Origin: a virus
IMG/VR virus record: IMGVR_UViG_3300012207_000006
Coordinates: 1-35,480 of that record
Strand: one strand, 5' to 3'
Length of the DNA: 35,480 nt
Below the pieces are notes generated by a model, which was not told the DNA's origin, searched no databases, and saw only the letters and a program-made list of their open reading frames with translations. The position numbers and the translations under genes were made by a program. This document shows positions 11,519-29,930 of this stretch, piece by piece. The first letter of the stretch is position 1, and each line of letters begins with the position of its first letter.

Positions 11519-13426
11519 TCAATGCACGATCTCCCAAAAGACCGTGCTAGTATCTGTACCGCTGGATGAACTGATAACGAAGGATGTCCCGGCGACGATG
11601 GTACCGATGCTGAGGTGTCCTACAGTGCCACCCGTGACGACCCGCGTCAGGTGGATATTGTCGGCGGCCAATACTTCGGCAGTGGAAACAGTGACTGTAC
11701 CGCCTACTAATACAGCCCGTCCCTGTGTCACGCCGGTTGAGAGTCGATTCCCGCGACGCTGCGAGAGAGCCACACTGTCTGTGATCCCCGCTATAGCATT
11801 GCCCATCACATCATTGAAGGCCAAATCAGCTTCAGCGGTATTTTCTAGTCGAATCCCAGCTTGCTGTGTCACCCCAGCATCGTTCCGACATTTGTTCCCC
11901 AAGCAGACACAGCGAGTGCTTGACTCTGAGAACGTGATGCCATTCTGCTGAGTGACAGTCCCACTTGCTAATTGATCATTGTCAGTGCAGGTGTTGTCAT
12001 TCACGACGCAATTCGCTGAGTTATGTACCTGAATCCCGGAAAAGTTATTCAAGCGACAGATGTTCCCAACGACCGTCGTGAAAGGGCTCCCTGTGTTGTT
12101 ACCGAGAAAGATACCAGTACCACTAACGGAGCCTTCGACGTAGTTTCCGTTCACGTTGTTGTATTTGCCGGCGTCAAAGACCTCGATGCCATTCGTCGCG
12201 CAACTCTGGACGATGTTGTCGCAAACGGTATTGTTCGCAATCGCGGCGCCAAACAAGGTAATTCCCTCACCCGATACGCCTAAACTGCCGACGACAACGT
12301 TGTTCGCAATGACGTTGTACTGACAGGCGGTCGCACCATCAAGGAGAATCCCTTGATTATTGCAAGCTACCACCATGCATCCGACGACTGTCCCGTATTT
12401 ATGGTCTTGAACGTGAATCCCGGCATTCCCGCTGCCCTGTGTGCCTCCACAACCCCTTACATAGCAACTCGTGATAAGACATTCGAGCGATGTGGGACCC
12501 AGTTCAATGCCGTTCTGTCCCGTCGTGCCTGTGTTCAATACAATGCAGGCAATCGCAATGCTGCGCTGAACCGATCCGTCCATATAAATGCCGTTGCCAT
12601 TGAAGTTTTCGATAGTACAGCGATCAATCGTGCGGTAGAATCCACTATCGAACGTGATGCCGTGGAATCCCTGAAAGGTATGCACATTGACCACTTGGCA
12701 TTGATCGGCGGCGCCAGCTCCATGAATGAGTGAGCCAGCCGTTGCGGAACCTACTCCCTCAATCCGCAGGTTCTCAATTCGCTGGTAGGTAGAATTAAAG
12801 ACAATGCCATCACCAGTTGTCTGAGTATAGACGAGAGTGGTTGCTTCACGTCCAGCCCCGAGAAGAACTACGCCCTTTACCGCTGGAAAGGTCACTCCTG
12901 TAAAGCGATACGTTCCTTCTGGCGCGTAGACTGTTTGTCCGACAGTGGCACTGGTCAACGCGGCTTGAAGAGCTACCGTATCGTTGGCAACATTATCCCC
13001 TGCGGCTCCGTATGCCTTAACATCAACAACGTTGGGATTGGCACCCTCACGGGTCATGCGGACTGCTGTATTAAATGTGATGAGGGAGGCATTGTAGGGC
13101 AGCATCACTACCCCGTCCCACGCCCTGATCGGGACATACACATAGGGCCACCCCAGGAGTCGCGCTAATTCGATCGCTGTCGTCAGTCGCACTTCCACCG
13201 TTCCGGTAAATGCATTACTGCCAGCGTTAACCGTCTTGCTCGAGCCTGGGCGCAGGATATTCACACCATCGGGGTTATAGCCTTGTCCTGCGAGCAGAAT
13301 CCGAAAGGCGGGCTTGTCTATCGCTGCGTACGAGGGGTCAGTGCTCGGGACCACTCGTTCCAGATACTGTTGCCAGATTGGGACAAGCGTTCTTTCCTGA
13401 TAGTCTTTCGAGATCAGTAGGGACAT
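11519..13426 (-). CDS. Tailspike / depolymerase-like protein with right-handed beta-helix
   Basis: I start at ATG 13426, preceded by GAGGTGG, giving 635 aa. Residues about 1-110 are a virion-binding head (QERTLVPIWQQYLERVVP). A pectate-lyase-like start follows (VVDVKAYGAAGDNVANDTVA), then VYAPEGTYRFTGV and a long region of repeats rich in Asn, Gly, Val and Ile of the NosD / parallel beta-helix type (for example VVACNNQGILLDGA and NNVNGNYVEGSVSGTGIFL). Such spikes bind and often cleave host capsule or O-antigen. A short beta domain (VGGTVTVSTAEVL) closes the protein. The fold is clear; enzymatic activity is not visible from sequence. Confidence 0.85.
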   Translation of the reverse strand: MSLLISKDYQERTLVPIWQQYLERVVPSTDPSYAAIDKPAFRILLAGQGYNPDGVNILRPGSSKTVNAGSNAFTGTVEVRLTTAIELARLLGWPYVYVPIRAWDGVVMLPYNASLITFNTAVRMTREGANPNVVDVKAYGAAGDNVANDTVALQAALTSATVGQTVYAPEGTYRFTGVTFPAVKGVVLLGAGREATTLVYTQTTGDGIVFNSTYQRIENLRIEGVGSATAGSLIHGAGAADQCQVVNVHTFQGFHGITFDSGFYRTIDRCTIENFNGNGIYMDGSVQRSIAIACIVLNTGTTGQNGIELGPTSLECLITSCYVRGCGGTQGSGNAGIHVQDHKYGTVVGCMVVACNNQGILLDGATACQYNVIANNVVVGSLGVSGEGITLFGAAIANNTVCDNIVQSCATNGIEVFDAGKYNNVNGNYVEGSVSGTGIFLGNNTGSPFTTVVGNICRLNNFSGIQVHNSANCVVNDNTCTDNDQLASGTVTQQNGITFSESSTRCVCLGNKCRNDAGVTQQAGIRLENTAEADLAFNDVMGNAIAGITDSVALSQRRGNRLSTGVTQGRAVLVGGTVTVSTAEVLAADNIHLTRVVTGGTVGHLSIGTIVAGTSFVISSSSGTDTSTVFWEIVH

Positions 13427-13451
13427 TACATTCCACCTCGAGTCACGTGTT

Positions 13452-14381
13452 TCATACGTCTTCAACCCAATAGCGCGGCAGACCCCAATCCCGCACGAGA
13501 TAGCGATTGCCGCTCTCATCGGTAACGATGTACCAATTGTCCCCCAAGTCCGTTACCCGCAAGACGTTCTGGAAGGCGGATACTGAGAACCAGTTCGCTG
13601 GCTCATTGAGATACGGCTGCAAGGCTCGGAACGGCGGGGCATTCGGCCAGATGATGGGCGCTTGCCATTCCTGCCATTCGACGAGGAGCGGAACAGCAGC
13701 CTGCGCAATTTGCGCGTCGTCATGAACGACGGGCGTGGGCGTCCAGGATGGCCATAGAATGCGCGGGATGAAGTAGAACTCGTCAACGAGCGGAGGCGGC
13801 GCCACTGCAATATCGGCGTCATCGTAGACCACTGGCGTCGGTGTCCAGGACGGCCAGATGATGCGCGGAATGAAATGCACTTCATCTGGTACGATTGCGG
13901 GAATATCTTCGCTGCTTGCGTAGCCCCACGGCCCGATGATCGTAATGATGTCGGGCCATGGTAGTTGGGTGCTGATCGCGTATCCATCATCGAGCGCCAT
14001 GGTGGCGAAGGGGAGACTGTTTCCATCATCCCAGACCACCCGCACCGTGTTCTCATTGGGCCAGATGATGAGGGGCATGTCCCCGTCATCTTCAAAGACG
14101 CCAACCGCATGCCCCATGTCCCCTTGATCGGGAGGGACATATGAGAGGAGGTTCTGCGTCTGTTGAATGATGGGCGCTTGCCACGGATCAGACTCGAAGC
14201 TTTGCGGGAATTGCGGGCCAGCCCCGATCCCCACGAGGATCGACAGTGCCCCCATGTAGGCAGGCATCGGCCGGAGATAGAAAAAGAAGTCCTCATCGGG
14301 GACACAGACCGGCGTGCCGTCAGAATCACTCTGCGGGAAGAAGATTTCCGGCGATACGGCGAAGCCGGGGGCGAAGGACAC
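13452..14381 (-). CDS. Repeat-containing virion protein rich in Trp, Pro and Asp
   Basis: This 309-aa protein has two nearly identical 32-34-residue tandem units (residues about 165-196 and 199-230; 13692-13889) built on FIPRIxWPSWTPTPVVxDDA. Degenerate copies of the II-WPN motif occur near residues 105 and 243. It is very rich in Pro, Trp and Asp, and looks extended, perhaps a tail-fibre linker or an adhesin stalk. The C-terminus ends in WYIVTDESGNRYLVRDWG, a small beta motif seen at the ends of some phage proteins. It lies immediately upstream of the tailspike gene. No family recognised. Confidence 0.6.
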   Translation of the reverse strand: MSFAPGFAVSPEIFFPQSDSDGTPVCVPDEDFFFYLRPMPAYMGALSILVGIGAGPQFPQSFESDPWQAPIIQQTQNLLSYVPPDQGDMGHAVGVFEDDGDMPLIIWPNENTVRVVWDDGNSLPFATMALDDGYAISTQLPWPDIITIIGPWGYASSEDIPAIVPDEVHFIPRIIWPSWTPTPVVYDDADIAVAPPPLVDEFYFIPRILWPSWTPTPVVHDDAQIAQAAVPLLVEWQEWQAPIIWPNAPPFRALQPYLNEPANWFSVSAFQNVLRVTDLGDNWYIVTDESGNRYLVRDWGLPRYWVEDV

Positions 14382-26386: not shown

Positions 26387-26852
26387 GCTGGTATTTCGTG
26401 ACGAGGGGGTGCGGCGTTCCCGCACAGAACTTGGGACAGAGCTCGGCGAGCCGCTCGACTTGCTCGCGGTCGCGGAACAGCGTCTCAATGCCGTCGTACT
26501 TGCGGGGACTATTCACGGCGCGGCCCATGAGCCAATCGTCCGTAAGCGCCCCGTCGATCGCATAGCAGAGTAAGCCCCAATCGCCCCCGCTTTCGCGCAG
26601 CCGTGCGAGTAACCGCCGTTCCCGTTTCCGGTCATAGAGTGCAGCCGGATGATGCAGGCGAGTCGCCCAATAGGCAAAGACAATTTCGGCCATGCCGACA
26701 TAGAGCGCCTCCCGCTTGAGCCGTTCGCTCGCACCGTCGCGCAGCGCTTCCAAAAATTGCTTCGCGGTCACGGTAACGAGGGCAAGCGATTTTTTCTCCT
26801 GCGCCCTTGCATTGGCTAGATCCGGTGTTGCCTTTAGATCTTTAAGGGTCAA
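26370..26852 (-). CDS. Replication protein, helicase-loader-like (lambda P-type position)
   Basis: The 160-aa product carries a conserved phage replication motif: YWATRLHHPAALYDRKRERR, then WGLLCYAIDGALTDDWLMG, then YDGIETLFRDREQVERL. I know this arrangement from the C-terminal domain of phage replication proteins encoded beside DnaA- or O-like initiators, where they recruit a host helicase. The start is TTG 26852, overlapping the stop of the initiator-like gene as TTGA. The N-terminus is charged and helical. Loading of the host DnaB is inferred, as no helicase gene is visible. Confidence 0.7.
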   Translation of the reverse strand: MTLKDLKATPDLANARAQEKKSLALVTVTAKQFLEALRDGASERLKREALYVGMAEIVFAYWATRLHHPAALYDRKRERRLLARLRESGGDWGLLCYAIDGALTDDWLMGRAVNSPRKYDGIETLFRDREQVERLAELCPKFCAGTPHPLVTKYQHGNGA

Positions 26853-27334
26853 CTACGGTTACCCAGAGGCTGGGAGCCTCTAGATCCTCTCTTTATCTCT
26901 GCTTCTGCTTCTGCTTCTGCTTCTGCTTTGGCTGACACGCTTGACACACGTATTGACCGTTTGACTCGCGTATTGACACCCCTTGACCGCCCCTCAGCCT
27001 TCTTGATCCGATTGTATTCGCGCCGGTCCTGCTCGTCGCGGACGGCCCGGTAGGCTTCATGGTTCGGCACGAAATAGGCGAATTCGCCCTCACGGATAAG
27101 GCGCCGCCCATTCGCCTTTTTGCTGCGGCTCTCTGGATCGGGACCACAGAGACGCTCGATACACTTGATGACGGCTTCTGGGGTCATGCCGATTAGACTG
27201 GCGAGATGGCGGGGATTGAGTTCCACCTGTGAAGCAACGGTATTGGCGACGACATAACCCCAAACAGCAAACATCTCCGGTCCAGCTCCGACCATTGAGC
27301 CGGTAAATGTTGAAGCGAAGAACTTACCGAACAT
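26849..27334 (-). CDS. Winged-helix replication initiator-like protein (O-type position)
   Basis: From ATG 27334 the product is 161 aa. Residues about 1-95 form a winged-helix domain: MFGKFFASTFTGSMV, then RHLASLIGMTPEAVIKCIER and CGPDPESRSKKANGRRLI, a pattern of phage replication initiators and related DNA-binding proteins. The last 45 residues are basic and low complexity (KAEAEAEAEAEIKR). The DNA encoding them carries a repeat array (26932-26987) beside a pyrimidine-rich tract, as in the lambda O gene. The next gene is the helicase-loader candidate. Confidence 0.7.
   Translation of the reverse strand: MFGKFFASTFTGSMVGAGPEMFAVWGYVVANTVASQVELNPRHLASLIGMTPEAVIKCIERLCGPDPESRSKKANGRRLIREGEFAYFVPNHEAYRAVRDEQDRREYNRIKKAEGRSRGVNTRVKRSIRVSSVSAKAEAEAEAEAEIKRGSRGSQPLGNRS
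26901..26924. repeat. Hexanucleotide microsatellite (GCTTCT x4)
   Basis: Four perfect copies of GCTTCT encode a poly-Ala-Glu run in the C-terminus of the initiator-like protein. Together with flanking bases, the tract from about 26885 to 26930 is almost all pyrimidine on the plus strand. Such asymmetric tracts next to repeats are seen at phage origins. The run may vary between related phages by slippage. Confidence 0.85.
26932..26987. other. Candidate replication origin: TTGAC repeat array
   Basis: Five TTGAC sequences start at 26941, 26953, 26961, 26973 and 26983, with a near copy (CTGAC) at 26932. Two 17-bp units, at 26941-26957 and 26961-26977, match at 15 positions and are 20 bp apart, giving an iteron-like array. 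It lies in the 3' part of the initiator-like gene and beside a pyrimidine-rich tract, as the lambda origin lies inside gene O. A further TTGAC pair (TTGACGCGCATTGAC) lies at 27550-27564. Confidence 0.55.
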
Positions 27335-27566
27335 GGACGCCCTCGAGGATGAGCACGCGGCCGCATTTGCGACACTGAATCTTCGGTGGTAATGCGCGAT
27401 CATGGCTATCGAAAATCACGCCGCCGTCTCCTGTGATGGCAATGACCCGCCCCTTGATTGGCAACTCGGCCTCACGGCCACATGGACAGTCATACGGAAT
27501 GGTGTGGGCATCTGGAGAAACGGTGCCGTAGTGTAATACTCGCCACGTTTTGACGCGCATTGACAC
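27324..27566 (-). CDS. Zinc-ribbon protein, small
   Basis: The 80-aa product has two CxC/CxxC pairs: YDCPCGREAEL in the first half and QCRKCGRVLIL in the second, 33-35 residues apart, with a beta-rich segment between. This is the layout of a small zinc-ribbon protein. ATG 27566 or ATG 27560 can serve as start. It overlaps the initiator gene by 11 bases. Role unknown. Confidence 0.65.
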   Translation of the reverse strand: MSMRVKTWRVLHYGTVSPDAHTIPYDCPCGREAELPIKGRVIAITGDGGVIFDSHDRALPPKIQCRKCGRVLILEGVHVR

Positions 27567-29853: not shown

Positions 29854-29904
29854 CCACTTGTCAAGTGGGAAATGAAAGTGTAATGCAATCGTTACTTGAC
29901 AGGT
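29854..29904. promoter_or_regulatory. Divergent control region with two related palindromes
   Basis: The 86-bp gap between the two arms holds CCACTTGTCAAGTGG (29854-29868, perfect 7-1-7 inverted repeat) and a related ACTTGACAGGT (29894-29904), centres 38 bp apart. The second contains TTGACA (29896-29901), a -35 for rightward transcription, with TATAGA at 29916-29921 (spacer 14, short). Leftward, CTGTCA with TACACT (29882-29877) is a weak promoter whose start would fall in the first palindrome. Operator function is likely; exact promoters are not settled. Confidence 0.55.
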
Positions 29905-29930
29905 CGGGGCCTGCCTATAGATTGAGGTCC

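Follow-up and report, generated by a model that had tools for sequence, protein, structure and literature searches.

Does a cluster of short repeats inside the gene of a predicted winged-helix protein mark the place where an uncultivated phage starts to replicate its DNA, or do the repeats serve the encoded protein, the regulation of the gene or some other process? The window analyzed here (the whole stretch of DNA) is a 35,480-base IMG/VR virus record of an uncultivated phage, which its tail, major head, portal, and terminase genes, along with a methyltransferase and RusA, identify as a tailed phage. A sequence-only reading had proposed an origin-like array in a winged-helix initiator gene, with a layout resembling that of lambda O, and the comparison with relatives supports this proposal, since the array is conserved and persists even where it does not code for protein. 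We consider it probable that the array is the phage's replication origin, located inside its own initiator gene and read by a basic helix; no binding, coverage, or replicon data are available.

A local cluster of GTCA sites

Five copies of TTGAC were found on the plus strand at positions 26941, 26953, 26961, 26973, and 26983 (span 26941-26987), together with the repeat pair CGCTTGACACACGTATTGAC and CGTTTGACTCGCGTATTGAC, which has a 20-bp period and is 85% identical. Both the array and the pair had been described in the 3′ part of the winged-helix gene, and both are present there. The five TTGAC copies were confirmed, but the count was incomplete, as a sixth site, which reads TGAC at 26933-26936 on the plus strand and GTCAGCC in the coding direction, abuts the adjoining pyrimidine tract. 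On the coding strand, the TTGAC sites read GTCAA, and the iteron array comprises six GTCA sites on the minus strand at 26933-26988 (TGAC on the plus strand at 26933, 26942, 26954, 26962, 26974, and 26984), with spacings of 9, 12, 8, 12, and 10 bp. In 40 simulated windows, at most three TTGAC copies fell within 47 bp compared to the five observed, and when the linker was recoded synonymously 20,000 times, its six GTCA copies were never reached. Across the whole window, TTGAC occurs at about its expected frequency (65 copies versus 62), and the cluster is therefore local; outside the tract, no other 5-mer forms so strong a cluster anywhere in the window.

The putative initiator gene and its apparently split-off C-terminal part

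The array lies within the 3′ half of P0001 (26849-27334, minus strand), the ORF for the N-terminal part of the putative initiator, for which an HMM family and an AF2 model delineate a winged-helix (wHTH) domain, a putative basic recognition helix, and a linker that would carry the origin. This ORF opens at 27403, and alignment with relatives places the conserved start at the ATG at 27334. The AF2 model, based on a 73-row alignment, has a pLDDT of 90 and predicts the wHTH at residues 16 to 95 and a single long helix at residues 92 to 151. The wHTH is CRP-like (Z of 8.7, 2.2 Å, 69 residues), a fold that is a common one; the fold list includes RepE chains, and viral structure matches include proteins named replication initiator and replisome organizer. 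P0001 had been described as unrelated to O by sequence, which agrees with the absence of any sequence match to O families, of any significant match to Pfam, PHROGs, or NCBIfam, and of any tblastn match in 50,697 phages. A sequence search of the PDB gave no match either.

The next ORF, P0002 (26370-26852, minus strand), has a TTG start that overlaps the P0001 stop in a different frame. It had been described as looking like a helicase loader; it is not recognizable as a P-type loader, and a P0002-type domain is fused at the C terminus of initiators of the same family (L015, L056, L110, L333, and others). Because of these fusions in relatives, the initiator appears to be split in the window phage, and P0002 is best read from sequence as the C-terminal domain that has become detached from it, with a role as a loader that is only conjectural. 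The split at 26849-26852 may be a true fission or an assembly frameshift, which the sequence cannot separate. The P0002 model has a pLDDT of 89 and no structural match in the PDB, and P0002 as a query in viral contigs returned no match. Neither DnaB nor a recognized loader was found in the window.

A large family of uncultivated phages shares the plan

Used alone as a query, P0001 retrieved L002 to L005, and the single match in genome contigs was L005, in a Planctomycetota MAG. A DNA scan for (GCAGAA)4GC alone returned 119 loci, a set biased for the tract, and in about half of them the tract directly follows a homologous wHTH domain. About half of the (GCAGAA)n loci (L006 to L124) lack the wHTH family, and some of these possibly encode different initiators that share the array. 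Given this bias, tract-independent profile searches were added, and the distinct members that they found had the array in 85 of 113 cases and in 87 of 98 further ones. The HMM family has about 270 members from uncultivated phages, and approximately 80% of the profile-found members share one plan, i.e., a wHTH, iterons spaced by about 10 bp, and a 6-nt periodic (NCA-NNN)n array. The array detector was a regular expression with the iteron word anchored on GT; an unanchored word finder again returned mostly GT-type words. Conservation of spacing in relatives was the test that the sequence-only reading had set for itself, and it was passed: position and spacing are kept across the family while the sequence changes.

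PHROG matches among family members include "replication initiation" and "DnaD-like helicase loader", and a DnaB-type helicase is encoded at 44 of 172 array loci compared to 3 of 64 control loci. With five family-member queries, tblastn found no match in annotated phages and plasmids, leaving the family without an annotated or cultured reference, and no publication on this initiator family or array was found in the open-licence literature. Short wHTH paralogues (L137, L141, L149, L163, L171, L178, L179, L183, and L184) break off shortly behind the basic helix, without array or iterons; they are possibly regulators. Two initiators (L061, 3629-4636, and L250) have an additional domain, located between basic helix and tract, that resembles MUG113/T5orf172 (GIY-YIG-like) Pfam matches from the family scan.

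The repeats are maintained at the DNA level

In the linker from the wHTH to the array, exact 6-mer repeat pairs number 15.9 compared to a synonymous expectation of 2.4 (6.6-fold), while the wHTH region is at expectation (0.80 versus 0.82). Iteron copies lie 9 to 11 bp apart with a peak at 10 bp and echoes at 19 to 21 and 29 to 32 bp, and they occupy two or three codon phases in 75 of 79 members. Codon choice within the hexamer array is strongly biased, with GCA used for 97% of Ala (19% elsewhere), GAT for 87% of Asp (37% elsewhere), and ACA for 86% of Thr (18% elsewhere). Two relatives that share 57 to 58% identity with the window protein, L211 and L212, have a shortened initiator ORF whose end falls ahead of the array or at it; in both, the iterons and ACAGAAGCAGAAGC persist beyond that ORF. 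The several codon phases and the array outside the ORF in these two close relatives indicate that selection acts on DNA.

The pyrimidine tract of the window is (TCTGCT)5.2 at 26898-26928, and on the minus strand it forms part of a 6-nt periodic (GCAGAA)n array at 26898-26931 that adjoins the last iteron and is a candidate opening or single-strand element. A pyrimidine-rich GCTTCT tract had been noted as flanking the array; it is present, but it is more than a flank and belongs to the conserved element. No AT-rich unwinding tract lies beside the iterons, where the neighboring (GCAGAA)n has 50% GC. Readings of the tract as a set of primase sites (CTG) and as a DnaA-trio were dropped, the first in view of VDVD- and SPYP-type arrays without CTG and the second in view of its period of 6 (NCA-NNN) and of GCAGAG variants. 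A constant distance to the last iteron holds in many members (iteron G at −10) and fails in others. A hairpin, AGAGGCT-nnn-AGCCTCT (26865-26881), lies just past the array, yet support for it as a third element is weak (mean z of −1.08 versus −0.1). A subset of members has GC-rich hairpins 3′ of the hexamer array, often CCCCCTnACCCCC..GGGGG (peptide PPnPPKGG).

Iteron sequence covaries with one face of the basic helix

Iteron types differ by lineage (GTCAAC, GTAACG, GTTAAC, GTCGAC, GTGAAC, GTGGAC, GTCAGC, GTAAGC, GTCCCG, and others), and their sequence covaries with columns 106, 107, 110, 111, 113, and 114 of the basic helix that ends the domain. In the window, the helix is encoded by REYNRIKKAEGR (26987-27022, minus strand; domain columns 104 to 115), and the six columns read Y, N, K, K, E, and G. 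Arginine is found at column 115 in every member having that column. At position 4 of GTnnnn, A accompanies Asn, Leu, Met, Thr, or Ser at column 107 in 65 of 65 cases (31 of 31 for Asn alone), G accompanies Lys107 (11/11) and Gln107 (6/7), and C accompanies Glu107 (4/4). At position 5, C goes with Arg110 (39/42) and A with Lys, Tyr, or Trp110 (43/48). The covariation tables are 39:1:3:62 for C at position 5 with Arg110 and 17:3:1:86 for G at position 4 with Lys or Gln107. The helix class of the window (Asn107 with Lys110) pairs with GTCA in all eight members that have it. These pairings (Lys-G, Glu-C, Asn-A, Arg-CG) are chemically sensible, which argues for readout by the helix, although the contacts themselves are only predicted from covariation and have not been observed. 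The bZIP register for GTCA/GTAA half-sites, N-x2-x-x-x2-x-R, is matched by columns 107, 110, 111, and 114 together with the Arg at column 115, as an analogy of register only. Helix 3 of the wHTH was also considered as the specificity element, and it showed little or no covariation.

Among pairs with less than 30% core identity, the iteron type was shared in 21 of 32 when at least four of the six helix residues agreed and in 5 of 301 when no more than two did; the helix columns for this comparison were chosen on the same data. In a held-out set of later-fetched members, for which the columns had been fixed beforehand, the helix predicted the iteron in 40 of 52 cases versus 31 of 52 for the wHTH core (discordant 12:3, p = 0.035), and in 24 of 26 when a close helix match existed. 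A clade-level phylogenetic covariation test yielded three to four supported independent pairs, none contradictory on average, and was underpowered.

Iteron copies upstream of the gene suggest autoregulation

A GTCAA pair spaced by 10 bp lies at 27550-27566 (minus strand), i.e., at −220/−230, where the zinc-ribbon-like ORF ahead of the initiator begins, and is a candidate operator; GTGTCAATGCGCG at 27554-27566 repeats the array sequence. This small ORF before the initiator (27324-27566, minus strand), in which the CxxC pattern was read directly, is also found upstream in relatives L002, L211, and L212, and close relatives have upstream pairs at similar places. Across the family, the 200 nt upstream of the gene contain 87 occurrences of the iteron hexamer versus 8.1 expected, and 50 of 93 members carry their own iteron hexamer within 250 nt upstream, compared to 8.4 expected from the hexamers of other members. 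The presence of own-iteron copies upstream of the gene suggests that the initiator autoregulates through them. Together, the covariation between helix and iterons and the upstream copies imply that the array is the initiator's own site, for which binding data are lacking.

Alternative explanations for the array

As far as sequence comparison can establish, the array is a DNA element, characterized by its spacing, by DNA-level selection, by covariation with the helix, and by copies upstream. The idea that the (EA)n stretch and the preceding repeats merely encode a helical rod, with the DNA pattern as a by-product of slippage, can appeal to the AF2 model, in which the EA stretch is part of a single long helix, and to EA being the commonest frame. 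However, the hexamer array occurs in three frames and both orientations (EA, QK, RS, AS, SV, and others), encoding QKQK, RSRS, ASAS, DPDP, VDVD, or SVSV, the codon phase of the iterons shifts between copies, and codon choice is fixed to NCA/GAT. The arrays outside the ORF in L211 and L212 argue strongly against a purely protein-level cause, and already contradict this linker explanation, to which we give almost no credence. It is also very unlikely that helix and iterons covary only as DNA neighbors exchanged together by recombination. Their proximity (within about 60 bp) and at least 54 changes of iteron type on a tree of the wHTH core would fit such exchange, but the covariation is confined to one helix face with sensible residue-base pairing, and the upstream copies track the helix too. 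Column 109, which is equally variable, has an excess of 0.18 versus 1.36 at column 110, and in distant pairs the codons of the contact residues are no more alike when the iteron is the same (identity of 0.37) than when it differs (0.44). With column 109 contributing little and no excess codon sharing in convergent pairs, cotransfer of neighboring DNA is an unlikely explanation.

An operator function alone would have the wHTH protein act as an early-gene repressor or activator, bound in and upstream of its gene, with replication starting elsewhere. The CRP-like fold and the upstream copies are compatible with this, which remains conceivable though unlikely, but it leaves aside that some five to seven regularly spaced sites lie in coding sequence and border on another conserved array, of 6-nt period, as well as the replication-initiation PHROGs matched by the family and the C-terminal domain, and the helicase neighbors. 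That the array serves partition, as a centromere-like site, or signals packaging is highly improbable. Partition systems use iteron arrays too, and the terminase genes of the window are 2 kb from the array; against this, no ParA/ParM-type gene was found among the window genes scanned, which were not all of them, and the position in the gene and the hexamer array are constant in the family.

A proposed mechanism and its relation to known systems

In the origin that we favor, the wHTH domain of the initiator would have a long basic helix at its end, and one face of this helix (bZIP-like positions i, i+3, i+4, and i+7, with an invariant Arg at i+8) would read a GTCA half-site. Six such half-sites would be lined up at intervals of about one helical turn, as far as the (GCAGAA)n tract, where the duplex would probably be opened or a single strand captured. 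P0002, the C-terminal domain, would then probably recruit a host or phage helicase, and the initiator would probably repress the operon to which it belongs by way of the GTCA pair 220 to 230 bp upstream. Physical binding, origin activity, strand opening at the hexamer tract, and helicase recruitment are all inferred.

The intragenic layout is already known, since lambda has iterons in the middle of its O gene that are bound by the initiator (PMC7466680, PMC6022878). As in lambda O/ori-lambda and its Stx-phage relatives, the order here is midgene iterons, then a further element, then a C-terminal partner function. In contrast to lambda, P0001 has no O-family match, the sites are short (GTnnn) and recur about every 10 bp, a GC-neutral (NCA-NNN)n array takes the place of the AT-rich tract, and readout is apparently by a basic helix. 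DnaA-trios belong to the basal unwinding unit of oriC, and Rep proteins also bind the single-stranded DUE (PMC10797057). DnaA boxes and DnaA-trios resemble the window in that double-strand sites run straight into a short-period tract near the last site; however, the period here is 6 and not 3, there is no AAA+ initiator, and strand opening is not evidenced for the phage tract. Iteron plasmid Rep proteins (RepE, TrfA) likewise combine a wHTH initiator with direct repeats, whereas the P0001 model has one wHTH and a long helix instead of two wHTH, no sequence relation was found, and the phage origin would be inside the gene. The DnaA-trios and Rep binding of single-stranded DUE are functional analogies only.

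A bacterial precedent for bZIP-like readout is RptR, a bZIP-like regulator (PMC12255303). The basic regions of bZIP and Skn-1 proteins share with the phage helix the i, i+3, i+4, i+7, and Arg i+8 pattern, Asn as the commonest residue at i, and GTCA/GTAA. The contact register and half-sites of bZIP proteins are those of GCN4/AP-1 and PAR. Unlike these, the phage helix has no leucine zipper, is attached to a wHTH, is followed by a linker of variable length and iteron-coded composition, and would probably act in monomeric tandem copies with a function in replication. The bZIP likeness is convergence and not homology. The best reading is an intragenic iteron origin outside the O, Rep, and bZIP families, different in protein family, site length and spacing, hexamer array, and apparent readout. 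That a very large uncultivated family combines a monomeric bZIP-like helix, a simple residue-base code, and half-sites convergent with those of eukaryotic bZIP proteins with a new (NCA-NNN)n strand-opening or single-strand-loading element is a more ambitious proposal, one that we hold tentatively and with some doubt.

Origins of uncultivated phages are rarely known, and this one would be locatable from sequence alone, with an iteron sequence largely predictable from a few initiator residues. The residue-base table offers a protein-DNA recognition code that is directly testable. Iteron types switch often, which suggests that incompatibility between coresident phages is selected for, and the 6-nt array would add a new class to the known origin elements.

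Genomic setting of the array

Between 3 and 30 kb, the minus strand carries nearly every gene. The cumulative GC skew reaches its minimum at about 29.0 to 29.5 kb, 2 kb from the array; this minimum coincides with the change of gene strand and thus speaks neither for nor against an origin. At 29855-29905, where operons diverge, palindromic CACTTGTCAAGTG and TTACTTGACAGG have the look of the promoter/operator of a genetic switch. Elsewhere in the window, 11519-13519 encodes a beta-helix tail protein with a C-terminal K1-lyase domain, a module of capsule depolymerases.
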